Program-made: the position numbers and the translations under genes | The notes under the pieces: generated by a model | Databases searched by the model: none | Told to the model about the DNA's origin: nothing | What the model saw: only the letters and a program-made list of their open reading frames with translations | Assembly: GCA_947568835.1 (NCBI GenBank) | Contig: OX387602.1 | Coordinates: forward strand, 15,985,021 to 16,049,020 | Direction of reading: 5' to 3' | DNA length: 64,000 nt | Source of the DNA: Protonemura montana | Taxonomy: Eukaryota; Arthropoda; Insecta; Plecoptera; Nemouridae | Part shown: positions 10,924 to 30,353 of the stretch, piece after piece | Numbering within the stretch: the first letter of the stretch is position 1 | Layout of the letters: every line of letters starts with the position of its first letter

Positions 10924-13900
10924 GTAACTTGCCTTCACGCACCCTTCTCTTTGTGGTCACGACTAAGGAGTCTGGGAGCCGCACGGGAAACAGAGCTAAG
11001 ATGGCTGTTTGGGAGTAAGGAATGGCATGGAGTGTTTTCCTTACTGTGCTTTGCCACACGGTCGTACAACATTTCCCTTGATTTTTTTTGGGAAAATTTT
11101 CGAAAACCAACAGTCAGTATCGAATGCGGACTCTTAGCTTTCTAATGCAGGGGTCGGTATATTTCTAGCTGTCGCGGCTAGTCATTCAAAGTTCCCTGTT
11201 TGAGCTTTCTGCTCTTGAATCCTGAGTCCTACCTATGCTAATGCGCGTTTCAAAAAGTTTCGCCCTCCACTCAAAAGTTCAATCGCCTCTTTTGAGCGGA
11301 AGGTGTTTGATATTCTTCGCAAAGATTTTGTTTGTTCTTCCGGACATTTTTTTAAATTCCACACCACGCTAGCGGCCAGCGTAACTGCAAGAACGTACCG
11401 GGAGTTTGACTGAAGTGATGACGGGTGGCTAACGCCTAGGTTTTTACCCCAGGGAAGTCTTCGGCGCTGATCCTTACGCCGCCGAGGGACGTTCTGGTAA
11501 AAGAGGGTAGCGCCGCCTTGTTCGACTGCGCCTTCAAGCAGGCGGACCTCGTCGAGTGGTACTTCAAGGAGAACACTCCGCTGGAGAATGGCACGGGGTA
11601 AGTCTAGTCGCGACCTCCTGTGGTGTAAAGTCGCGATGTCGCGAATTCCAGATTCGGTGTGTCGGCGTCGTCTCGGCAGAGCCGAGACGATGGTGACGCG
11701 GAGGGTCGGGTTTTACCCCGTTGTCTCCGGGCGGCATGTCGCGAATTCATGTTGGATCCCCAAGTTAAGCAACTCAGCGCCGGGTCTGGTATTGGATGCC
11801 TTGCATGCGATGTGCAGGGCACGATGACGATTCATTTGGTCGTGTGTTGATTCTCAGTTTGCTGGCGCGTTGTAAAACAGTGTTTATGAGTTTTCGTCAA
11901 TGCCCAGAAGAAAATACTTTGATCTTTCTGTTGCACGTAAACAAAGGCAAGTTTACAACTTTACTTCCAAGATTCGGAGTACCAAGTTTGGAAAAGATCT
12001 TCAACTTGACAGAGACTATTGGTCTGGCTCAGATTGGGGGAGGGAGGGGGGTTCCTTGTGCACTCTTTGTGGGTTTTATGGATCTTCTATCACCGAGACA
12101 AAAAAAAACTGCTTCTGGCGATTACATGTGGAAGAGATACTAATTAAATCTTCATTCCAGGCTAAGAGGAAAATGGGGCGTGTTTTTCTCGAAATAGCGC
12201 GGCGGTGCGGGAAACGTCTGATACCTGCATTCATAAAACTATAAATGTGGGGCTGCAGCATTTTCCATGGCACCATATAAAAATGTATTCCAAGATAAAT
12301 AATTATTTAAATCTGTTTGCATTAGCGGGCAAGAAAAAATGTGTTCGCCTCGATTTTTACATAGAAATGTTTCGTTCTCCTTGATTTTTAGTGAGATCAT
12401 AACTGGCGCTCTGTCTTTACATAGGGTAGGCTTGTGTTTATGGGTTAATACATGTGCTATCACCAGTTTACTGTCTCCACTATAAATATTTATCAGCCTA
12501 AAGCGGTTTTTAGTTGCGCACAAAGAGCGCATTTGGTTCTGTCTTCTCGAAGCCACCCAGAAAAGCCCTGACTGTCAATTACGATCTCATGCTCACACCA
12601 TTTCAGCCCGATGTTGTATACAATACTGAGATGGGGACAGGGACACAAGTTTCACACATACTGGGTTTACCAGAGGGTGGTAAACAAAGTTATGGTATTA
12701 AAAAAAGTAAGAACTAGAGTATCCTGCCTGGTAATAAACATAGGCAGTAATAAAATCCATGATAAGAATCTAAATCAACTGTTCCAAACATTCAATTTCA
12801 GAGAAGTGGGAATGGGTCCATTTTTGCATTCTCTTGGTTTTTTTTATATCTATATATGTGTGGTGGGGGATTGAGGCTGGAAAATCAAACCAGTATAGGA
12901 ACCTGGAAACTTCAGATTGCCCTTACTGATTGCTCTATGTACTGAGCTTTCCAGGCACACAAGATTCCAGCCTCACCAGGTGGGATAAGGGATCTCGTAA
13001 ATCGTGTGATTTTATTGGCTTTAAGCCTTCTTTGAAGTTCACATTTTAGGACAATAATGCTCCATCTCATCCAGTTTTCCAATGCATCAAATTAAAATCA
13101 AACCAATAATGATTACTTTTGATTCCAGAACCATGGTCTTCCCCAACGGCTCTCTGCTGATCCACCAGGCATGGCCGGAGAACGAGGGGCTCTACTCTTG
13201 TGTGGGAATCCGGGAAAACACGGAAGCTGTACCTGAAACTTACACCGCCAAGCTGCGCATCGCCTGTAAGTTGCTTTGCGTTTGATGTTGAAACTCTTTT
13301 ATTTTATAATATAATTTTATATTATGTATAATTTGTTTCTATTTCTAGCTATTGTTGAACAAACTAATCTGTTTGGCATTATTTCAATTATACCACCAAG
13401 CTGTGCTACAATCTGACCTAATTCTGTCTAATTCCTGAATTTTAGGCATTATGGCCCTAATATTAATCTCCGACTCTTTTCAGACTTGAACAATCTATCT
13501 AGTGGTTCGTTCGAGCCGTCCCTCCCAGCTAGCCATACTCTGGTGGCGCCAGAGAAGGCTGAATTTGAGCTGACGTGCCTTGCCCCGCGCGGATCACCTC
13601 CTCCACACGTGTTCTGGCGCGACCCACGTGGACACGTCGTCACTGATTCAGGGCCTGTCCGCGTGGATGATAATCGCCTCGTAATAGAAGCAGTACGCGC
13701 TCGGGAGGATGCTGGGAACTACACATGTGTTGTCGAAAACACAGCCGGAACCAGGAATGCTTCCTTTCAGCTCATCGTTTCCAGTGAGTGCTATCTTTCA
13801 GATCCTACTCTCAATAATCTGTAATCAATTGCTGCCATTTTTTTAATTTGATTTATTTTTGTCTGCGCAACACATTAAAGTAAATGGTGAGAGCAAGAAC

Positions 13901-19900: not shown

Positions 19901-20388
19901 GACACATATAACACTCAAACGTTGTACAGAATATATCAGGAATATAATTTAGCCAGAATATTTTATTTTTTTACATGACGCTCCTATTTGGTCACACACT
20001 TCGTAGATATAATATTCCATATTTTCATTTTCAATTCCGCTTTTCTTATTTTAAATTTCTCTTTTATTGACAGGTAATTCCTCTACGCTGGATGCCGCAC
20101 GAAGCCATCTACGAGGATGACTACTCAACCAAATCAGACGTATATTCATTTGCTTGTCTCGTCTGGGAGATTTTCCACCAAGCCGATCTGCCGTTCTCTA
20201 AAATGTCAGACGACGTAGTCCTAGCTGCGCTTAAAAGCGACGAACTGCGCTGGAAGTGTCACAAAACAACACCCCCAGCACTAGTGACGTTGCTCAACTC
20301 ATGCTGGTCTCATTCTCCGAGGGACCGGCCGTCGTTCACTCAAATAGCAGTCAGCGTTGGAGAAATCTCCATAGACAGCGCCAATTAG
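10136..20388 (+). CDS. otk: PTK7 / off-track receptor pseudokinase, 5' end missing
   Basis: This is a single-pass membrane receptor of the PTK7/off-track family, known for roles in Wnt/planar-polarity and semaphorin-plexin signalling. I read 14 exons, all with GT-AG borders and matching phases: 10136-10262, 10763-10923, 11453-11597, 13129-13265, 13484-13783, 14120-14407, 14691-14881, 15125-15212, 15768-15915, 16676-16989, 17611-17790, 18097-18323, 18824-19078 and 20074-20388 (stop TAG at 20386). They join without frameshift into about 958 residues: six Ig domains (1-560), a membrane span (about 594-614), a basic juxtamembrane stretch and a kinase-like domain (about 690-950). Vertebrate PTK7 is about 1070 residues with seven Ig domains, so roughly 110 residues (signal peptide plus probably the first Ig) are missing. 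Exon 1 opens in phase 1 after a good acceptor (tttgcctgtcttgttccag). The family assignment is firm; residue numbers count from the first visible codon. Confidence 0.93.
11453..13265 (+). CDS. otk: otk exons 3-4: second visible Ig domain
   Basis: Exons 11453-11597 and 13129-13265 are joined in phase 2 across a 1.5-kb intron. The domain shows ALFDCAF, VEWYF and the closing NEGLYSCVG. The FPNGSLLI strand matches the corresponding PTK7 domain well. The intron carries a 5S-like repeat fragment (about 11636-11830). Confidence 0.88.
11636..11830 (+). repeat. 5S rRNA-like repeat fragment in an otk intron
   Basis: The stretch at 11758-11800 reads caagttaagcaact, then gccgggtctggtattggatg. It follows the internal Pol III promoter of 5S rRNA (A box, intermediate element, start of C box). 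Just upstream are a 9-bp hairpin with a 3-nt AGA loop (cgtctcggc/gccgagacg) and two copies of atgtcgcgaattc about 100 bp apart. The 5S outer ends are missing, so this is a derived repeat, not a 5S gene. It lies in the 1.5-kb intron between otk exons 3 and 4. Confidence 0.6.
13484..13783 (+). CDS. otk: otk exon 5: third visible Ig domain
   Basis: A whole Ig domain in one phase-1/phase-1 exon: ELTCLAP, VFWRD, and the closing EDAGNYTCVVEN motif. Acceptor ctcttttcag; donor gtgagt. Confidence 0.92.
13925..14006 (+). repeat. Retroposon 3' tail with (ATT)n
   Basis: Sequence ending gacaaataaatgacacttt followed by an (ATT)n run looks like the 3' end of a non-LTR retroposon (LINE or SINE). It lies in the otk intron between exons 5 and 6. 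No body is recognisable upstream. Confidence 0.35.
14120..14407 (+). CDS. otk: otk exon 6: fourth visible Ig domain
   Basis: A whole Ig domain in one phase-1/phase-1 exon: HLSCTVDAMPYP, LRWLHNG and the closing SDRGEYRCQV. The symmetric phase is the usual form of a shuffled extracellular module. Confidence 0.92.
14691..15212 (+). CDS. otk: otk exons 7-8: fifth visible Ig domain
   Basis: Exons 14691-14881 and 15125-15212 are joined in phase 0. The domain shows KVYCKAQ, IRWIKRG and the closing EDRGQYMCIATD. The donor after exon 7 is gttggt, weaker than the others, but the reading frame runs cleanly into exon 8. Confidence 0.88.
15768..16989 (+). CDS. otk: otk exons 9-10: sixth Ig domain and membrane span
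   Basis: Exons 15768-15915 and 16676-16989 are joined in phase 2. The Ig domain shows TIHCIAEGDPKP, IKWDRNG and DTDKYGCTAGN. After a Pro/Gly/Met-rich stalk come a hydrophobic span of about 21 residues (from VTITLSAAAAYMVL to IW) and the stop-transfer run CRYRRRRRK. This places the N-terminus outside and the kinase-like domain inside the cell. Confidence 0.92.
17611..17790 (+). CDS. otk: otk exon 11: cytoplasmic juxtamembrane segment
   Basis: A Ser/Arg/Asp-rich cytoplasmic linker ending in YEKLSFPRSDLHSLVLL, which resembles the LxFPR segment that precedes the kinase-like domain in PTK7. Phase 1 at both ends. The many Ser and Arg residues make it a plausible phosphorylation region; that is inference. 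Confidence 0.85.
   Translation, partial: RRLVIAQNCRMRLRAVVWIVHAATGEILLSLTVQGRASARARATRNCHSPAPIFTVWCF
18097..20388 (+). CDS. otk: otk exons 12-14: pseudokinase domain and stop
   Basis: Exons 18097-18323, 18824-19078 and 20074-20388 encode the tyrosine-kinase-like domain. The glycine loop reads GHGDFGE and the VAIK-type lysine is kept (VLVK, about residue 718). The catalytic loop is HRDLAARN (about 816-823). The DFG triplet is replaced by LCA (about 836-838), as expected of a PTK7-family pseudokinase. PLRWMPHEAIYEDDYSTKSD, SDVYSFACLVWE and the closing SHSPRDRPSF motif of kinase subdomain XI follow. The protein ends 13 residues after RPSF. Confidence 0.94.
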
Positions 20389-21020
20389 CGACTAGTTTAT
20401 GTTTTAAAGTGTATATTTTTATTTCCCTGGTCGAGGTGATTCCTCTTCGATGGGCCTAGTCTATTTGAAACAATTTTGTCTTCATGCTTTCCCATATCTA
20501 GAAAGTTGGAAGTAAAATGAGTGGTGGTTTTATTCAGCCGCACTGAATATATTATTGGGAGCTTTGAGTGCATGGTTACAAAGTTCTAAAGTGATCCTAC
20601 TTTGTTTTAACGACAAATATTTTGCCTTAAAAATTACAAAGCAAGTCTGAGACATTTTACTGCCAAAAATTAACTTGTTATTAAACAATGTAAATGCGTT
20701 TATCTTGAAATTTAAATATATTAGCTGATGATCAGTGATAATTGCCACTGGTTTCGAATGTCAGCTACAAGTCTTGAGTGATCTGGCTTTAAAAGGTGAT
20801 GCTTTTTTAACACTGCATCAGGCAACCAACCTACTCAAGAAGTCAGTACTACACCCTCATTTCCCTTAGCTTTGGAATATCTCTAAAAGGCATGAACATA
20901 GATTTTCAGACTTCTCGCGTTGTATAATCTACATGCTGCGCATTTTGGATGGGCGATGGGGGTCATGTAAAGTACAATTTTCTTGCATAATTATTGTTGT
21001 ACAAAAAATCATTTATTAAA
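20389..21020 (+). other. Probable otk 3' UTR
   Basis: AT-rich sequence after the otk stop without a supportable ORF. Possible polyadenylation signals of the ATTAAA type lie at 20680-20685 and 21015-21020. Which one is used cannot be read from sequence. Confidence 0.4.
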
Positions 21021-21091
21021 ATCTTGTTGTCCTATCTCATCATATACATGCACCTACTACATAGCTATATTTCAGCTCTTATGAGCTGGCT

Positions 21092-21152
21092 CTTATGAAG
21101 TTGCTGTACAACTACAAGCAAGGCGAATGAAGTTGTACAGCAACTTCATTCG
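21092..21152. repeat. 17-bp perfect inverted repeat at the start of SINE copy A
   Basis: gaagttgctgtacaact pairs perfectly with agttgtacagcaacttc across a short spacer. The right arm is also the first conserved stretch of the SINE copy that follows. Confidence 0.7.
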
Positions 21153-21437
21153 TCGTGCTTGTCAACCTCTCGACAGCATGGATTTGTGGAGAAATCCTGC
21201 TGTTTGCGTTGTACCGTCCTTTAGAAGAGGCGTTAGGCTGGTGGTCCCCTTGGTGCTTTTCGACAGGAGTAGGCTACGTGCCGGCGCCGGGTTCTCACTC
21301 CTCCCTTCTAGGCTAGGTTAGGTTCATCATCATCGTCATCCTCATTATCATCTGCTCATTCATCGACGCCATTAGACCAGTGCCACGAGGCTAGTTGTCA
21401 AAACAGTGCGTCGTTAAACCCCAATAATCAATTAATT
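21127..21437 (+). repeat. SINE with 5S-type head, copy A (head missing)
   Basis: Shares its body with copies at 28599-28818 and 32440-32836. Common blocks are tcaacctctcgacagcatgg, atttgtggagaaatcctgct, gacaggagtaggctacgtgc, attagaccagtgccac and gtcaaaacagtgcgtcgtta. The 3' end is an ATCA-like run (ccaataatcaattaatta), a tail typical of some SINE families. The 5S-like head seen in copy B is absent here. Confidence 0.75.
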
Positions 21438-21830
21438 ATATTTATTACCTACTTAATAAAACATTGTGACATTTGTCAAAACATTCACGGTAGGTACAAC
21501 AAGATGTGGTTGTATAATATATACAAGTATGTGTTAAAATATGTAACGTTTTATATGTAGCTGTTATCTGTACATATTCCTGTGCATACATTGCAACCAT
21601 AATATAATGTATAGATAGCTTCATATTTAGCAAAGTAGGTATTGAATTTTGTACAGGAATATGTAGTCGAACTCTTTCAACAAATGAACTGAGATTTTAA
21701 TCAATGGCTTCAAATTATTTTCCCATATCCTAATACCATCTAAGTACTATCTTTGCAACCACTTTTCTTTTGCTACATGCACTTTGCTGCAATTCATATT
21801 TATATATAATAAAGTATATTCTATTCATGG

Positions 21831-21978
21831 CTGCTCTCATGGAAGGGTGGTTAGGATGAATGGAATCACAAGTTGGAGGTTCCAAGATCTAACACCACTT
21901 GTATTGACATAGCTTATATCACATATATGCGATCAATTGTGCTAATAAAATTATTATTATTATTATTATTATTATTAT
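21831..21978 (+). repeat. tRNA-type SINE with (ATT)n tail
   Basis: An A-box-like stretch (tggttaggatgaatgg, about 21848) and a degenerate B box (gaggttccaagatct, about 21876) sit at normal tRNA spacing. A short unrelated body and an (ATT)n tail ending at 21978 follow. This is the layout of a tRNA-derived SINE. The source tRNA is not clear. Confidence 0.55.
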
Positions 21979-22276
21979 CAAGAAAAGTCACATTTATATT
22001 ATTGAAAACTAGAGGCTTGCATTGAAATGTCCACATACATTTTTAATTAGGCGATTGGAAATGCATGAAAACGCTTCGTTGCATGGTTGTGGGTGAAGTA
22101 AAGTTCTTAGTCGACCGCCAAGACCTAGACTTGGAAGAGAGTGCAAATTGTGAGATACCTGATTTGCAAAATAGCTTTTGTCACATCGTCGAAAACCAGC
22201 GAGCATTTTCGGTCAGTCGATTTTGGTAAGTCGTGATCGATCGTGCACATGGCGTGTGACGTCACGCGGATCGCCC

Positions 22277-22327
22277 ATTGCGTGTGCTGTTAAGATCGCA
22301 CTTCAACGCAGAAAATATCGTATCTTG
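22277..22327 (+). repeat. Left inverted arm, outer fragment
   Basis: Matches the reverse complement of the outer end of the right arm (about 31890-31939), with some six differences in the first 43 bp. It ends in GTATCTTG, which is repeated immediately after the hAT insertion. This fragment therefore joins to 27918 once the insertion is removed. Confidence 0.8.
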
Positions 22328-22402
22328 CAGTGTCGGACTGGCAGCCAGGCGGCAAATGCCGCCGGGCCTCCAGCCGGCCGGGGCCCCTGGGGCCCCCAAT
22401 TA

Positions 22403-24260
22403 CAACAAGGAAGTTTTTTAAAACATTTTTTAATTTATAGTCATTTGATTATGTTGTCTTAATGTTGTAAATAGCCAGTGCTTGTTATCATTGAGCCACG
22501 CCGCCCTGATGGCAACAGGTTGGTGGAAGTCGTATATAAACACTTGATTTTAGACTTGGTAAAAAAAAAACCATGATAGTTATATTTCGGATCATCTTTC
22601 CCCATCCCTTCACTTGATCCATGTTCCAGGTGAAGGGCTTTGAAAGACAAAAGCAGGAGGAGCCGGGCAGCGAACTGCGTACCCCACGCATTGGAACTCA
22701 CGACCATCCCACTGCGCTACGAGAACACATATGCCATCACTGATTTGTAATCAACATGCAAGTCAATAAAACAAGATGTAAATAAATCACTTCTAGCAGT
22801 AATATTTATGTGCGAATCCTGATGTGTAGGCCATTCATCGTACACGTGTGCACTGACGTCGTGTTTACAGTCCAGGCGTTGGGTGTGCAGTCACTTCAAT
22901 TTCCACTCAAAAAATATTGAAAAATCAATGGACGTTTTTTACGTTTCTTACGTTTATTCTTGATTTTTGAAGATTCGCCCATACTGTGGTCTATGAGGTA
23001 GCTTGCACCCCCGAACACGATGGGCTATTATGGGCACGATTCCGTTATTTTATAGCTTCAAGGTTGGCAGCTCAGCAAGGTGGGTACACGGGTTACCGAC
23101 CGATGGCCGTGATTTATCGACATTTTAATTGATCAAGTACATTTGATATCCAACAGATTGCGTTTGCGATCACTTTGTGCTTTAACTCGACTGCTGGTTC
23201 GGTGATACTTGTTTGGTATGGTTGACCAGGGGACCTGACTGCGAGCAACGGGGTTCGACTGGCGTTCCTCCAGTCGGACTTCAAGGCTTGCATTTTCGCG
23301 TTAGATCGTGGCAACTGGTGAAAGCCCATTTTTTGGAGTGGCCGCGTGCCTCAGCATTGCTTGGTGTTGGGGTCCGGTCCGGCATTTACACATTGTGTAG
23401 AAGCGAAGCCTTCTTTCTCTATTAGCGCATGGTCGATATCGTGGTGGTGGTGGTAGTGGTGGTGGTGGTGGTGGTGGTGGTGATGGTGGTGATGGTGATA
23501 TTGTTGGTGATATTGTAGGTGTTGTTATTGATGTTAATATTGATATTAATGTTTCTAATTTTAATAGTGTTGGTGGTATTAATGTGCGTTAGCTTCGTTA
23601 TATTGCTTATGATGATGTGTGTTAATTAATATAATTGTAATTCCGACTAACTCCAGTACATATTGATTTTTCCCCCTATTCCTACTTCTTCTTATATATT
23701 TACTTTATATAATTTTTCGTACTTCAGTTACATTTTCTTTTAGTAACAGTAGCCATCTTTTCATTAGCGTTCCCCACCATGGCCAATATTGTTTCGTCGA
23801 TGCTTTCACCCCCTGGTAGCCAGGCTAGGAACTAAAACATAATTTGAATTTTTTTTTCTTGCCCTGGAGGATGATTGGTGTGATTAAAAAAAGACGTAGG
23901 CAACGAGGAACGTACGCAGGACGTTTGATACCTGATGCAACCACATAAGCCGCTCGACCACCAGATCCGCTCTCCATGATATGTTTTTTTGCGATACAAA
24001 AACTGTTCAACTGTGACAACTCCGTCAAAAAATCCAAAAAAATCTCAATCACTGCCTCCATGATTTTCAACAAAAGATATTTCGACAAAACATTATAAAC
24101 ATCAGCTTCAGTATTGCCCATCATCGCACAAAATAAAAAATACGTTCGAAGTCTTGTACAGTTTACTCATTCTGGATCTTTCACTATGTATGAAAAGACT
24201 GTCGTACAACACCACTTGGACACCCAGGACAATGGTGCCATACTCTGGCGCTGGCGCTTA
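22403..24260. other. hAT interior, left part: no gene
   Basis: No supportable coding sequence. A weak tRNA-like stretch on the minus strand (about 22685-22725) has tagcgcagtggg followed closely by gagttccaatgcg, without room for an anticodon arm. A GGT/GTG simple repeat covers 23437-23520. The rest shows nothing I recognise. Confidence 0.5.
23437..23520 (+). repeat. (GGT)n simple repeat
   Basis: A GTGGTGGTGGT run with scattered GAT/GTA variants that degrades rightward into TTGGTGAT-like units. Confidence 0.85.
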
Positions 24261-24543
24261 GGTCTAGCATCAAGCGTATAGGAACGATTATAATGAGTGT
24301 TACGCATCATCAGCGCCACCTGTTGACAGGATTTTGTACTACACTTTGGACAAATATGTTGATATTTTCCTGCTGTATTTCCAAGTTATTTTCCGATTAG
24401 TTAATCAATTAGATTAAAAATCAGACTTGGTAAATGTCTTCAATTTTTACAAGTCCAGAGTATAGTACACAATCCTGCCAACAGGTGGCGCTGATGATGC
24501 TTAACACTAATTATAATCGTTCCTATACGCTTGATGCTAGACG
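24261..24543. mobile_element. MITE with ~85-bp inverted ends and TA target site
   Basis: The left end (from gtctagcatcaagcgtatag) matches the reverse complement of the right end for about 85 bp with a few mismatches, through the shared tract catcatcagcgccacctgtt. TA dinucleotides flank the element at 24259-24260 and 24544-24545. Size (about 283 bp), long inverted ends and TA flanks fit a Tc1/mariner-type MITE. It lies inside the hAT insertion, ten bases before the hairpin chain. Confidence 0.8.
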
Positions 24544-24554
24544 TAGGAGCCCGG

Positions 24555-24864
24555 GTGCGTGAGCGACTGGCGCTCCGCGCCAGTCGCTCACGCACGCTTC
24601 TGGGCCCTGGCGCGGAGCGCCAGGGCCCAGCAGCGTGCCGGTGCGCCCGTGCACCTGAGCGCGCTTCGCGCGCTCAGGTGCACGGGCGCACCGGCGTGCG
24701 TCCAAGCGCGCTCCGCGCGCTTGGACGCACACCTTTGCGCGCTCGCGCGCGCTCGCGCGCGCTCGCGCGCGCTCGCGCGCGCGAAGCGCGCGCGAAGCGC
24801 GCGCGAGCGCTATAAAATTGCGGAGCGCGACTGGCGCGAAGCGCCAGTCGCGCTCCGCAATTTT
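24555..24864. repeat. Chain of GC-rich perfect hairpins with 3-nt loops
   Basis: Consecutive inverted repeats stand end to end. They are: 24555-24595 (19-bp arms, loop TCC); 24596-24634 (18-bp arms, one mismatch, loop GGA); 24637-24695 (28-bp perfect arms, loop TTC); 24696-24730 (16-bp arms, loop TCC); and 24814-24864 (24-bp perfect arms, loop GAA). Between the fourth and last, 24731-24810 is a run of ten-base gcgctcgcgc units and GCGC-GAA-GCGC units. Every apex is GCGC-NNN-GCGC, with NNN being TCC, GGA, TTC or GAA. The first and last hairpins share the inner arm gcgactggcgc. Open frames crossing it are artefacts of the GC-rich palindromes. Confidence 0.9.
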
Positions 24865-24923
24865 CGTGGTATTTTTACTGTGCGATCAGAAAAAAAAATA
24901 AGATGTGTGCCACTGCAGTAGTT

Positions 24924-25009
24924 GTGCTGACGGGAATCGAACCCGGGACCCCGGCAATCTGATGATTATTTACAAGAGATAGTGGCTTGTACCGCACGAC
25001 CACGCGCAC
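24924..25009 (-). ncRNA. tRNA-like unit 1
   Basis: Read on the minus strand it has an A-box-like stretch (tggtcgtgcgg) and a perfect B box (GGTTCGATTCC) in a good T arm (cggg/cccg). The first four acceptor bases GTGC pair with GCAC at the 3' end. A T9 tract follows about 26 nt downstream (plus 24890-24898). The rest of the cloverleaf is poor, so this is a tRNA-derived Pol III-like unit, not a normal tRNA. Confidence 0.55.
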
Positions 25010-25108
25010 ATCTATTTACTCTGGCATTTTTATGGTATATAATTTCTTCAGACTGCAGCTACCATATGTAAATACTTTGAATGTCGTATTCCAATAATAA
25101 AATATCCT

Positions 25109-25195
25109 GGCGGTGAGCGGGATCGAACCAGGTCACAATGTAGCTTGATGGTTCCGATGTCACGACATGTCCATTGTGCTACGCAGACGGTCGCC
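25109..25195 (-). ncRNA. tRNA-like unit 2, Arg-like
   Basis: On the minus strand gcgtagcacaatggacatg resembles the D-arm of tRNA-Arg. A TCG sits where an Arg anticodon would be (gacatcggaa), and there is a perfect B box (GGTTCGATCCC). Acceptor GGCG pairs with CGCC. A T4 tract lies about 6 nt downstream (plus 25099-25102). The variable region is longer than normal, and several stems are broken. Confidence 0.5.
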
Positions 25196-25630
25196 CCTGC
25201 TGTGGTAAACTGAATATATTTTAATTTCATATCTGATGTCCCTGTTTACCGGGTTGACTATAGGCACATGTCACTGACGGCACTCAATGTATACTACGGT
25301 TGGGAGTCGCATTCTTCTTTGCGTTTCAGTGAACCATCAATTAAGAAATTCAAGATATTATGACCGACTATGACCGACTTACGCAGCGAGCAAGAACTGG
25401 ACCTGACCCCCGCACCAAGTAATGCAGGGGCAATCGTCCACTCTAAAGATACGGGCTACCACCAGTTGCCACCAGTCAGCTGATAGCGCTCTCTGCAGGG
25501 ACGCGAGCCACACCCAGTTGCTGGTATGTCGTTTTTGGAGATCACCGGCAGCATGGAGATCGCTTCACACTACATCGCCTCTGCCATGCACTATCAAAGA
25601 TTGTGCAAGCTATGTCGTGAAGAACAAAAA

Positions 25631-25709
25631 GCGGAGCGGACAGGACTCGAACGCGGTCACCCCCAAATTGCTCTTTCGAGGAGAGACTTTTCCAACCGGC
25701 CATCGAGAC
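25631..25709 (-). ncRNA. tRNA-like unit 3, Ser-like
   Basis: On the minus strand tggccggttggaaaag matches the tRNA-Ser A box. The loop cctcgaaagag holds CGA in the anticodon position, a G-rich variable arm follows, and the B box is cgttcgagtcc. A T5 tract follows directly (plus 25626-25630), the position of a Pol III terminator. It shares flanking sequence with unit 4 on both sides (tgaagaacaaaa and tgaatagcag on the plus strand), so the two arose by duplication. Confidence 0.55.
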
Positions 25710-25873
25710 AAGATAAATTTTGTTGGAACAAAGAGATACATGAATAGCAGAAGACGACTACAGTGTAATAATGAAAAGAGTCAAAAATACTTTAAGAGTT
25801 TCGATGGATGAACGAGCGATGCAATATTTGCAGCATTCAATGAATGCCAGACGCCACTTGATGAAGAACAAAA

Positions 25874-25959
25874 TAAGGATCGGGACGGATTCGAACACGA
25901 GACTATTACACATTGCTCCCCATGAAGAAGTGGCCGTACCTCACGGCCACTGAGAAGTG
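25874..25959 (-). ncRNA. tRNA-like unit 4
   Basis: On the minus strand agtggccgtgaggtacgg is a good A box and tgttcgaatcc a near-perfect B box. A T4 tract follows directly (plus 25870-25873). The acceptor stem does not pair. Flanks match those of unit 3, giving a repeat period of about 245 bp. Confidence 0.5.
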
Positions 25960-25997
25960 TTGCTACACTAGAGGAAATAACATCTACTTGAATAGCA

Positions 25998-27816
25998 GCT
26001 GGCGGGGATCACGGTACACCATCGAGAAGAGATGTAAGTTGTTTAGATGTTAGTTCCAGGCCGGCTGGATTCTTTAAATTTGATTTTCGTGCTTAAACCC
26101 ACAAATCATGGTTCCAAACATAATTTTGGGAACATTTTTAAGATCACTTTTGTAGACTTACGGAATAACATTATACGCCTGTCATTCGGGCCTCGCGACA
26201 CTGACACAAACGGGGCGCCGGTTCAACCCGTTTCAATCGCCTCTCGCTCTTTCAACGCGACACCAAAGTGAATAGTATTTTATACAACGCACTTGTGTAG
26301 CACTTGTAGCACATACAAAGAAACTGCACACTCAGGGGGCCCCAAAAATGCATGGGGTGGCCGCCTAATTGGTTTTTCTTTTAAATGTAAAGTAAAGAAG
26401 TCGAAGTAAAGTAGTAAGTGATGTTGGACAACATTTAGAAGTTACGATAAGCATGGTGGTTGATAATCGAATAAGAATTACATGAATTTCTAAATTATAA
26501 CTTCCAAATTTGCATCGTATGGGTTATTAAATTATGAGGGTTTGCATTGAGCTAACCACATATTTGCAGTGGAGCTAGACGTCGACCACGCGCTTATTTC
26601 ACATTAGCAACAATAATTATTGGCGTTTCTACGGGGAAATTAAGATTTGTATTTGTCAGCTACACGGGTCTGGCGGATTTACTCGTGCTTTGCTGTCTAC
26701 AGATTGTTGCCTGAATGATGACCCCGAGCAAGCCTAAACTCAAATTTGAAGTCTGAGCTGGCTACAGAATGTGTTTAAGAGTGATGTTTCGAACAGCTGT
26801 TGTGTCGGTATGTGTGTATCAGTATCTTGAAACAGAACAGTTCCAGAAAAAAACGGCTAAAATTACAGCGAATTAGTCATTGAATTAACATTGAAACAAT
26901 ATCCACACTTTCGAGTGTCGCAGTGCTTTGTTGGCGCTGCGTCGAGCCTAGATAGTTCGATCGCTTTGCGTTGTCATCATATTAGCTGTACTCCTACAAC
27001 ACTTTGAGTTTTGGGTGTTGGCATATTATTTTCAGAATGATAAGATCCTATGAAAATACGTAGGTACGTTATCGCAGATTTCCACTTACAAATAAATTTT
27101 TCACTAACACGTAAAAATAACACGTGCTTTTTGAATATAAGAGCAGAGAAGAGCAAACCTTTCCGGAAATGAATGATCGATTTACACTATCGCAAGAAAA
27201 AGTGGGTACGTGGGGCTAACGTGAGCTTACGCCAAAAATAACCTCTGCAGTGGGCAGAAAATGTATCGTATTCCAGACAAAGAAATCCACCAGTATGTTT
27301 TTGCCCTAGCACAAGCATTTTTCTGAGAAGTAGATAGACGATTTCAAAAAGGCTTTATTTTCAGTAATTCCAAAGGCAATTAATATTGTGTTGTAATATC
27401 GTGTTAATATCGTGTGTCGTGTTTCTACGATTTCGTAGAGTCCTGTGCCTGGTTGTAAATCGTCTATTCAATTCTATGAATCGTCGACGTGTTGATTCTT
27501 GTCGACAAATTTTTTCATTTAATTTTGGCGTGTGAGGTGCTGCCTGAGTTTTTTTTGGGGCACAAAATTTGGGTTTTGCTTCGGGCGTCCAAACCCTACA
27601 CTGTGCGTACACGACACAATCGTATCTCAAGTCGATACGTCACAGGTGTATAATTTTGGTTTAATTAATTTCAAATTGGCCATTGATCGATCATTGTATC
27701 TGTACAATCCCCATTCTCTAACGCCGGACTTGGGCGCTGCTACCAGTTTATGTGTATACAACCCTTAGTTTACCTATACACCACCTTGCATATACATTCC
27801 TTTCCTGCTTGGCGGA
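25998..27816. other. hAT interior, right part: no gene
   Basis: No supportable ORF. A fragment resembling the GC-rich subterminal sequence of the element occurs at about 26333-26360 (ggggccccaaaaatgcatgg). Otherwise AT-rich sequence without structure I can name. Confidence 0.45.
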
Positions 27817-27839
27817 CCCCCCCCCCCCCCCCCCCCCCC
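27817..27839 (+). repeat. Poly-C run (23)
   Basis: Uninterrupted cytosine tract about 56 bp inside the right terminal repeat of the hAT insertion. Confidence 0.95.
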
Positions 27840-27909
27840 AAGGCATGGGCTTTGCGGGGCCCCAAAAGTCTCATTGCCGCCGGGGCCTTTTGGAGCCAGT
27901 CCGACACTG

Positions 27910-28612
27910 GTATCTTGTAAAGGTTTGCAACAAGTTTTGCAACAAAAGTCAGAATATCACATATTTTTATCTTCCGATCGGTCCTATTTTGAGGCGTTGC
28001 CTATGCCTAAAATTCAAAAGCTATATTTTATAAAATTGTGTCAAGTAGCTGGGAACGAATGACGTTGTCAGGAAATTTAGTTTGCCTGTGAAAACTTTGA
28101 AGCAACTCGTGGTACGCGTGAGTGCCACGGGACTGCCTATACGTACGGTTAATCCAACCATGACAAGTTTCAACTGAAATAATCGTCTAAAACGAGGCGA
28201 AAATTTGTCTCTTCGTACCAGGCGAGTAGCCGACAGAAGAGTTTCGCCTGAAACCTACTGCATCGCTGTGCAAGTGACGTCACAACACGTGCTCGATCGA
28301 CCCCACCTCGTACATTCGATCGACTGAAGCTCGACTCCCATTAGCTGACCGGTTTTCGAAGTGGATCGAGGTGATAACAGCAATGGCGTCCGAGGCTGCT
28401 ATCACAGACCAAATGTTTTCCAGGCATGCAGATGCTAAATAACTGCAAATTCTCGTACTTTAATTACGGATGTTTAATTAGATTAACTGTAACTATGTTA
28501 GCATTTGTTAGATGTGAGTGTTCTTGACCAAATCAAGTCACACAGCGGGTCCAATTGCTTACGAGCCCTCCTCGAATCGTCACACCGAACGGTTTGGAGT
28601 GCTGGAAACACC
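27910..28612 (+). repeat. Left inverted arm, main part
   Basis: Reverse complement of 31194-31910 at roughly 97-99 per cent identity over long stretches, with only scattered differences. With the fragment at 22277-22327 it makes an arm of about 0.75 kb. Its inner end runs into the 5S-like head of SINE copy B. Confidence 0.9.
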
Positions 28613-28818
28613 TGTTCTCGTGAGATCACCGACGTTAAGCAACACTGCGCTGGGTCAGGTATTGGATGGGTGACCATCATACACATGATCAGTTATGTTC
28701 GGGAGTGAGGTTGGAGGAATGAAAGTTAGTACAGCAACTTCATAGCATTGCTTATCAAACACTCGACTGCATTGATTTGTGGAGGAATCCTGCTGTTCGA
28801 GTTGCACCTTCCTGAGCC
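28599..28818 (+). repeat. SINE with 5S rRNA-like head, copy B
   Basis: The head follows 5S rRNA over about 90 bases: ttctcgtgagatcaccgacg, ttaagcaacactgcgc and ttggatgggtgacc match the 5S region containing the A box, intermediate element and C box. It continues into the shared SINE body (agcaacttca, gatttgtggaggaatcctgc) and breaks off near 28818 without the 3' tail. This is a 5S-derived SINE (SINE3-like layout), not a 5S gene. Confidence 0.8.
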
Positions 28819-30353
28819 ATCCTGAAAAATATCTAAATTTCAGCCGAACTTCTCCATTTCTATTCTCACCGTTTTTACAATGCTAAATGCCAGTTAAATA
28901 AGCAGGTTAAAATGAAAACAGAAGTATCTGATGACGAATAACCATGGGGATGAGTCTCATAAATTAAGTTGGACATATTAAAACTGCCCGTTGGAAGAAA
29001 TGTTGCCCAAAGTTGTATATGCACTCCCAAGTAAATGTCATAAAGGAAAGAATTTAGATTTAGAGTTTTGTCAAAGGTTGACAAACTAACCGTTTCCAAA
29101 TTTTAACTCTTGTTTATTTTTATCTTTAAAAGTTGATGGGTTTAATGCTTATTGAATTGCAAACACTATAATACGTGTAGGCAATTTTGATCACCAACTC
29201 TCCCATCCCTATGGGGTGGTAATACAATACTACCATGTAGCAAGCGTGTTTACCTTATTCAGTGCGAAAAGATAAGATATAATTTAAAAATCATTAATGA
29301 ATGAAAAATATTAGTTACAATAAATTAAAATCAATATGAACATAACATAAAACTCTTATAGACATAAATAAACATAATAAAATAACGACGGGTCGTCTTC
29401 TGGACGCTACGTTGTTATCATTGCGCAATTAAAGTGCTCAATTACACTAGTTTACCCCGAAGTTCTTAATTCACTGATGTCTGCCACCCATTTCTCTTGT
29501 ATTTATAGCAAAATTACATTGTTTCATCATTAAAAGTCACATTAAAATTCACTGCCATCCAAAAATGAACCGTCGTCAAAATGAATTTCTGTTCATTTGG
29601 TTTTATCAAGTGTGGCATTAGCACCTGGTCACTGACAGTCCCATTGGGTGATACATCTCAGTCACAAAGATCATAATAATTCTTATAATGCTTTACTTTT
29701 TAAAACAACTTACAACCCTCGTACTACACCATGCAGTACTCCTAGTGCATGGTGGTATAAGGGCAAATGACCACCCTTTTTTATGACTAGAACTCGTACA
29801 AATTATAAAAATACTGTTTGAAAGCTCAGAAATGGTGGTAGATATATCAGCTTAGCTAAAAATTCATTTGTATTCAAAAATAAAAGCGCACATTCATCGG
29901 TATGCCCTCAAAGGCAGCGAGCGAGCGAATTGATTATTGTGGTGTAATAATATGTAGCTTCTTTTACTGCCAATCCACAAATCTAAGCCAAAGCGATTTG
30001 AGGTATGCGTAAGTTTTACCGCCCTTGGATTCGGCAGAAAAAAATCCAGAAATGGTGGTTATGGTGTCTTACCACCTGTGTTACCACCATGCCTCTTAGA
30101 GTTAACAAACAAAAAACATTTTCTTATTGGCCGTTGCCAAGCACAAAAAAAAACACAATTTCAATGACTGTTAGGTTTGTAACGGAACACTGAAAAATCG
30201 GCTCTTATATTGAAGAGTCATAGGATATATTCATAAAGTAGATTCATATGATAGTATAGTTCTGCAGAGTCAGAGCCTACTGTTGAACTGTCTGCTGAGC
30301 AAACGAGCCGGCCAACACGTGGTACGGCAGGTGCCACACGATAACACTTGCGG
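28819..30353. other. Region between the inverted arms: no gene
   Basis: AT-rich, no supportable ORF. Several tggtggta and taccacca stretches occur at 29740-30095, including a small palindrome around caccatgca/tgcatggtg at about 29728. I see no element borders. Confidence 0.45.

Follow-up and report, generated by a model that had tools for sequence, protein, structure and literature searches.

Recurrent loop inversion in a chain of GC-rich hairpins carried by a putative nonautonomous hAT-type transposon of Protonemura montana

Within the window (the whole stretch of 64,000 nt of DNA analysed here) and at related places in the assembly, we find GC-rich hairpins with 3-nt loops that stand directly next to one another in a chain (24555–24864 in the window); the loops of hairpins 2, 3 and 4 invert exactly between copies (GAA/TTC, GGA/TCC) and the stems stay essentially unchanged. 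A tree of the flanking sequences of 36 copies requires at least 9, 8 and 4 inversions in hairpins 2, 3 and 4, and none in hairpins 1, 5 and 6. We suggest, and rate the chances as slightly better than even, that strand-switching during the copying of perfect hairpins inverts the loops, and that pairing of the arms in transmitted lineages is kept by templated correction, by selection or by both. The origin and upkeep of perfect stems are debated; here some loops are apparently free, the six adjoining stems, half of which invert, control for one another within the chain, and the inversion events are recorded in about 40 insertions. Should the inversions hold up in reads, the rate of template switching and its dependence on the stem would become measurable from genome assemblies.

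In the window copy, hairpins 1, 2, 3, 4 and 6 share the apex GCGC-NNN-GCGC (Table 1), and these five are the side-by-side hairpins that the first-pass annotation of this DNA had picked out at 24555–24864. It gave them arms of 16–28 bp, perfect in four of the five, which holds with the refinement that the exception, the 22-bp form of hairpin 2, has a single mismatch private to the window copy and a perfect core of 14 bp. The segment 24731–24810, taken earlier for a linker made of the apex module in tandem, is instead a sixth hairpin (hairpin 5), whose commonest form is GCGCTCACGCGCGC-GAA-GCGCGCGTGAGCGC; it is missing from one subfamily, and among the 39 chain-bearing places examined it is expanded (by 41 bp) in the window copy only, the chain measuring 331 bp there against 290 bp in most full copies. 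Tandem duplication had been thought unable to give the same apex with different arms. Since the inner stem CTGGCGC is common to hairpins 1, 2 and 6 and the inner stem AGCGCGC to hairpins 3 and 4, duplication followed by paired divergence can explain this combination. Outside the chain, the 64-kb window contains a single perfect hairpin with a 3-nt loop and arms of at least 10 bp (11668–11690). The predicted DNA fold of 24540–24870 has an energy of −213.5 kcal/mol, against −119.3 ± 4.7 in 100 shuffles (z = −20). A 120-aa reading frame crosses the chain; it looks like a by-product of the GC repeats, and a protein-coding chain was rejected. A known structured RNA family was rejected as well, given that no Rfam match reaches the gathering score in 23000–27000; at E ≤5 there are 50 matches in 24000–25600, all under the gathering score, several of them to microRNA models (E from 1e-3 to 2.5e-5).

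Table 1. Positions of the hairpins and of the features of their putative host transposon in the window, with the loops counted among the copies
Feature	Position	Strand	Description	Loops among copies
Hairpin 1	24555–24595	.	Perfect 19-bp arms, loop TCC; inverted in 0/35 scored copies	TCC 32, TTC 3, TCA 1 (36 copies)
Hairpin 2	24592–24638	.	22-bp arms, one mismatch, loop GGA; at least 9 inversions, 36 copies	GGA 18, TCC 7, GAA 5, TTC 6 (36 copies)
Hairpin 2, perfect core	24600–24630		14-bp arms, loop GGA	
Hairpin 3	24637–24695	.	Perfect 28-bp arms, loop TTC; at least 8 inversions, 36 copies	TTC 27, GAA 9 (36 copies)
Hairpin 4	24696–24730	.	Window: perfect 16-bp arms, loop TCC; at least 4 inversions, 35 scored copies	TCC 13, GAA 15, TTC 3, GGA 4, CAA 1 (36 copies)
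Hairpin 5	24737–24810	.	Expansion private to window copy; inverted in 0/24 scored copies	GAA 22, GGA 2, GAC 1 (25 copies)
Hairpin 6	24814–24864	.	Perfect 24-bp arms, loop GAA; inverted in 0/36 copies	GAA 34, GGA 2 (36 copies)
Putative nonautonomous hAT-type element	22328–27909 (5,582 bp)	.	Terminal repeats CAGTGTCGGACTGG / CCAGTCCGACACTG and 8/8 target duplication	
Left terminal inverted repeat (14 bp)	22328–22341	+	Paired ends CAGTGTCGGACTGG / CCAGTCCGACACTG	
Right terminal inverted repeat (14 bp)	27896–27909	-	Paired ends CAGTGTCGGACTGG / CCAGTCCGACACTG	
Left target-site duplication, 8 bp	22320–22327	.	GTATCTTG	
Right target-site duplication, 8 bp	27910–27917	.	GTATCTTG, identical to left	
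Imperfect palindrome	24253–24551	.	Arms of about 90 bp; adjoins chain on left	
Four tRNA B-box-like motifs	24933, 25119, 25643, 25887 (24933–25897)	-	At most one mismatch; inside transposon, right of chain	

Judged by its sequence, the host of the chain is a nonautonomous hAT-type DNA transposon: it ends in 14-bp terminal inverted repeats, is flanked by an 8-bp duplication, has no long ORF (the longest stop-to-stop frame inside it is 134 aa) and fits the terminal-repeat consensus of hAT elements, with a repeat that begins CAGTG. Among 21 sequences searched, the target duplication is 8/8 in the window copy and in three others (L049, L054 and L058) and 7/8 in one (L052); a further one (L044) has a pair of ends without a target duplication, and the other 15 have no pair of ends in range. 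In a comparison of the window with 20 stretches of eight kb, each surrounding a chain copy, the shared sequence started at 22340–22400 in 19 of them and reached 26040 in 15, and parts of 26055–27910 were present in 12. Considering that 26055–27909, where present, is mostly 95–98% identical to the window, as against mostly 87–94% for 22340–26040, the element seems to be a mosaic. B-box-like motifs, called with at most one mismatch to the B-box consensus, number 15 in the whole window and five within the element; ARAGORN calls no tRNA genes in 20000–30000.

Some further observations concern the surroundings of the element. An exon lies at 20074–20385, with inactive tyrosine-protein kinase 7 as its best match among solved structures. 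The segment 28584–28813 adjoins sequence common to 21125–21440 and is also matched in L004, L049 and L053; it appears to resemble 5S rRNA and may be a 5S-derived SINE, and L046 and L057 carry 95-bp tandem copies of part of it. Another long perfect hairpin, with the loop CAG/CTG, occurs in L052 (2288), L053 (5860) and L046 (7505); its arms end in TCCAGCCGGCCGGGGCCC or part of it, and the letters of its arms also occur near the left end of the element.

The chain-bearing element is found at about 40 places on eight contigs of the 258-Mb assembly, from which alone all copies come; we examined 39 of these places (the window lies in contig C1). To them is added at least one further chain, at C13:3755044, and two other places, C13:2290794 and C13:1881083, match hairpin 6 alone. 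A search of the assembly shows that the chain recurs genome-wide, hairpin 3 being present at 37 places (≤3 mismatches), all with a TTC/GAA loop. The chain copies are dispersed and do not make up one tandem satellite with conserved arms, the case in which the earlier reading was to be given up; five have their own target duplications, and satellite or assembly duplication was rejected on these grounds.

Genome-wide there are 2,962 GCGCNNNGCGC sites, of which 905 have TYC/GRA loops, against about 185 expected by chance (4/64 loops); the GCGC(TYC)GCGC sites of L001–L003 lie outside any stem of at least 6 bp. A second hairpin-bearing family, with a hairpin pattern found at 463 exact places (exemplars L065–L068), could account for about half of the 905, although the 463 must include hairpin 6 from a few copies of the chain (the pattern fits L024 and L034). 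In this family each of the long inverted terminal repeats contains one hairpin, with CGGGGTATAGGTGGGG beside it; the hairpin has a perfect inner stem of 7 bp, and its stem is broken by a tandem GA/GA mismatch. In places the members form arrays with a period of about 0.8 kb (about 1.7–1.8 kb at C1:28.8–31.2 Mb). In the exemplars compared, the hairpin is homologous to hairpin 6, the terminal repeat is homologous to the sequence directly left of the chain (the right arm of the palindrome in Table 1 is homologous to it), and a short spacer occupies the place of the chain. Given this spacer, hairpins 1–5 appear to be additions beside an older hairpin 6. Among the 100 matches listed of the 463, many of them tandem copies, no loop is inverted: the loops are GAA in 69, GGA in 24, GTA in 6 and AAA in 1, so that 99 of the 100 are G-N-A. 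The core of hairpins 1 and 6, taken as one pattern, has no exact match in viral contigs.

The flank tree and the pair counts rest on 36 of the 39 places, L062–L064 being left out for their broken chains and short flanks; support is below 80 for 13 of the 33 inner branches of the tree, and very long branches lead to two rows that are probably misaligned. L063 appears to carry a loop-to-loop deletion that removed the right arm of hairpin 2 together with the left arm of hairpin 3 and so fused the two hairpins. Orientation was scored for the loops TTC, TCC, GAA and GGA, one copy each of hairpins 1, 4 and 5 being unscored. The four flips of hairpin 4 are far fewer than the mean of 11.8 obtained with shuffled labels (0 of 1000 shuffles as low), and the orientation of hairpin 4 is therefore inherited. 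The flips of hairpin 2 (shuffled mean 10.8; 147 of 1000 shuffles as low) and of hairpin 3 (8.2; 594 of 1000) are not significantly better ordered than the shuffles, so that at these two hairpins inheritance does not speak against an artefact. We nevertheless consider it improbable that the inversions are artefacts of sequencing or assembling hairpin DNA: such artefacts would fit the disorder at hairpins 2 and 3, but they do not account for the inherited orientation of hairpin 4, for the lack of inversions in hairpins 1 and 6, whose stems are similar, or for their lack among the listed matches of the second family, whose perfect stem is shorter.

The loops were also compared without the tree. 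Among 53 pairs of copies with a flank distance below 6% (the pairs overlap in membership), the loop is inverted, or inverted with one base changed, in 29 for hairpin 2, 26 for hairpin 3 and 15 for hairpin 4, and inverted in none for hairpins 1 and 6 (0/53 each) and hairpin 5 (0/16); all loop differences in these pairs are either a point change or an inversion. Exact inversions separate the close relatives L031/L034 (2.4% divergence), L037/L038 (2.7%) and L056/L059 (1.5%, 941 columns), and with divergences of only 1.5–2.7% it is not credible that three point mutations yielded the reverse complement. Moreover, L031 and L034 have GAA/TTC while most of their subfamily has GGA/TCC, which indicates that the inversion carried a point mutation along. 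In the close pairs displayed, the loop is inverted and the adjoining inner stem is unchanged; a loop reversed inside an unchanged stem needs an event at the DNA level. The same pairs, together with the dispersal over eight contigs and the separate target duplications, argue against ordinary duplication (satellite or tandem) and against gene conversion between copies as the process that shuffled the loop types; there are some 40 copies on which it could have acted, and the second family does form arrays, but we regard this explanation as very improbable indeed.

In addition to the loops, the arms of the hairpins change in a patterned way. Each hairpin keeps its own arm sequence across the copies of the family, and changes match on both sides, from which we conclude that the hairpins are old parts of the transposon and were not grown afresh at each locus. 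The contrast drawn in the first-pass annotation between a conserved apex and varying arms is accordingly true within one chain, where arms differ from hairpin to hairpin, and not between copies, where comparison across loci finds the arms of each hairpin conserved; likewise, of its proposal that each hairpin grew by fold-back from a seed, copying by fold-back or strand switch survives as the preferred account and growth locus by locus does not. In 19 copies of equal chain length, the arms pair in 98.5% of cells, and two-sided changes affect 13 pairs (34 cells), where shuffles give 4.8 (6.5) and none of 500 reaches either figure; further pair types number 27, against 22.8 (5 of 500 shuffles), and a control with partners slid by 1–3 columns gives 0–1 two-sided pairs. 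In 14 chosen pairs of related copies (not all of them sisters on the flank tree) we count 17 two-sided and 45 one-sided changes, where about one two-sided change would be expected if the arms were independent. The pair counts omit the outermost pair in each of hairpins 3 and 4, the outer four in hairpin 2 and, for the second subfamily, the outer six in hairpin 4; hairpin 3 of L031/L034 was left out wholly in the count of 87 mispairs given below, and otherwise for its nine outer pairs. We expected the chain to have diverged less than its flanks, but overall this is not the case (0.01–0.17 in the chain versus 0.01–0.20 outside; 25-bp steps, 28 copies).

Parsimony on the tree gives 52 two-sided and 79 one-sided stem changes, with 21 against 10 on inner branches and 31 against 69 on end branches, and shows a mended mispair on no branch. 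With the two-sided excess absent from the end branches, correction does not act in every copy, and the pattern is matched equally well by selection on moving copies. Copies that have settled thus drift, whereas pairing persists in the lineages that are passed on, which can result from selection on moving copies or from correction tied to movement. One form of selection would act on a folded RNA (a hairpin RNA or small-RNA precursor) and keep the arms paired, the loop inversions being neutral, and this we hold to be unlikely. The dominance of two-sided changes on inner branches is as if broken copies had left fewer descendants, and two-sided changes are somewhat richer in transitions (38/52 versus 44/79 for one-sided changes; Fisher P = 0.064), as a G-U step would give; furthermore, the RNA fold of the chain has z = −22, and microRNA models match, below their curated cut-offs, the chain (E to 1e-4) and the neighbouring palindrome (E to 2.5e-5). 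Selection on RNA, however, produces no inversions, transversions make up 14 of the 52 two-sided changes, and the Rfam matches stay below the gathering score. A G-U preference, which would be a sign of selection on RNA, is not seen: mispairs favour neither strand (top-strand G-T 24 and A-C 23 of 87; 21 and 23 of 79 in a second count), which also goes against it but weakly, most of them having arisen after insertion.

Template switching predicts two-sided stem changes and, if it is interstrand, loop inversion as well (PMC8794818), and both are observed here. According to the account that we prefer, a hairpin would form in single-stranded DNA while the element is being copied, in replication or in gap repair after cut-and-paste movement, and the nascent strand would jump to the complementary strand within the stem, copy the loop in reverse and jump back. 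In a perfect stem such a switch would leave the inverted loop as its only trace; where a mutation has struck one arm, an event of this kind would copy one arm onto the other and restore pairing, or alternatively an in-strand fold-back would do so and keep the loop. Hairpins 1–5 would have arisen next to an ancestral hairpin 6 when the apex was duplicated or copied in inverted form, their arms diverging afterwards in a paired manner, and the apex may serve as the seed because one strand nearly always has a G-N-A triloop that a C-G pair closes, of the very stable d(GCGAAGC) mini-hairpin type. We infer what happens at the fork, how copying is linked to transposition and what part the G-N-A tip plays. 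Against template switching, hairpins 1 and 6 do not invert among the close pairs although their stems are as long (19 and 24 bp), and single events changing both stem and loop are at about chance, only 3 of the 21 flips sharing both hairpin and branch with a two-sided change (about 2.6 expected, no excess).

The constancy of hairpins 1 and 6 bears also on an explanation without DNA synthesis, in which the hairpins are turned round either by extruding as cruciforms that are then cut and rejoined or by a recombinase that works on their arms. In principle extrusion is open to long perfect GC stems with 3-nt loops, and inversion of a whole stem-loop would appear as loop inversion alone, as seen; but hairpins 1 and 6 should then invert too, and co-variation of the arms would not be produced by the process itself, so that we think this explanation rather unlikely. 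More speculatively, and in our view doubtful, hairpins 1 and 6 could act as single-stranded DNA signals specific to one strand, which a protein recognises or which prime copying, and their stable G-N-A tip would for that reason be locked to one strand, in mirror image, while the inner hairpins 2–4 turn freely at a high rate. If so, each round of movement could rewrite hairpins 2–4, and the second family would have the lock too: in 99 of the 100 matches listed there, many of which are tandem copies and so not independent, the G-N-A is on the same strand of the hairpin.

Finally, several known systems invite comparison. Like known nonautonomous hAT transposons, the element has a terminal repeat starting with CAGTG, an 8-bp target duplication and no long ORF; it differs from them in its long internal hairpin chain and its row of tRNA-like promoter motifs. 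Every GCGC-GAA-GCGC apex of the chain contains GCGAAGC letter for letter, and d(GCGAAGC) is reported to be an extraordinarily stable DNA mini-hairpin (Hirao 1994, cited in PMC11292364). The tips GGA and GTA also fit the G-N-A rule. We know of no natural transposon role of d(GCGAAGC). All triloops tried on one stem come out equal under the DNA energy model, which leaves the loops unranked. Minute inversions at plastid hairpins are said to have been described by Kelchner and Wendel in 1996. In the plastid trnH-psbA region, as far as excerpts of one study go (PMC2903610), a loop of 25–27 bp between inverted repeats inverts recurrently at one locus; the likeness lies in the recurrent inversion of a loop flanked by inverted repeats, and the differences in the nuclear location, the about 40 dispersed copies and the six adjoining stems, of which three invert. 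Repetitive hairpin-forming and double-hairpin elements are known from mitochondria (PMC2800124, in the portion consulted). The first-pass annotation had offered such elements as a loose analogy, which is apt for repeated hairpin elements and fails for the organelle, the chain here lying in a DNA transposon on a 33.1-Mb contig with an animal-type kinase exon nearby.

The closest precedent is in rRNA and other RNA genes, for which the sections at hand of Monttinen and Loytynoja 2022 (PMC8794818) report two-sided stem changes and complete loop inversions within unchanged stems, propose template switching and treat loop inversion as a sign of interstrand switching. In the same sections, loop inversions are rare (69 inversion-only cases), 85.5% of the affected loops are partly self-complementary, and conserved rRNA loops hide the footprint that separates interstrand template switching from in-strand fold-back. 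Here, by contrast with that material, the loops are 3 nt long and fully changed by inversion, two hairpins differ in about half of the close pairs, and the carrier is a transposon without known RNA function. In the open-licence literature we found no paper that brings transposable elements together with template switching, hairpins, inverted repeats and the inversion of loops, and the parts of it dealing with nonautonomous hAT or MITE hairpin elements, so far as they were available, mention no such chain. Considering that inversions of these types are known from plastids and rRNA genes, a nuclear transposon with several hairpins that invert recurrently looks like a new combination.
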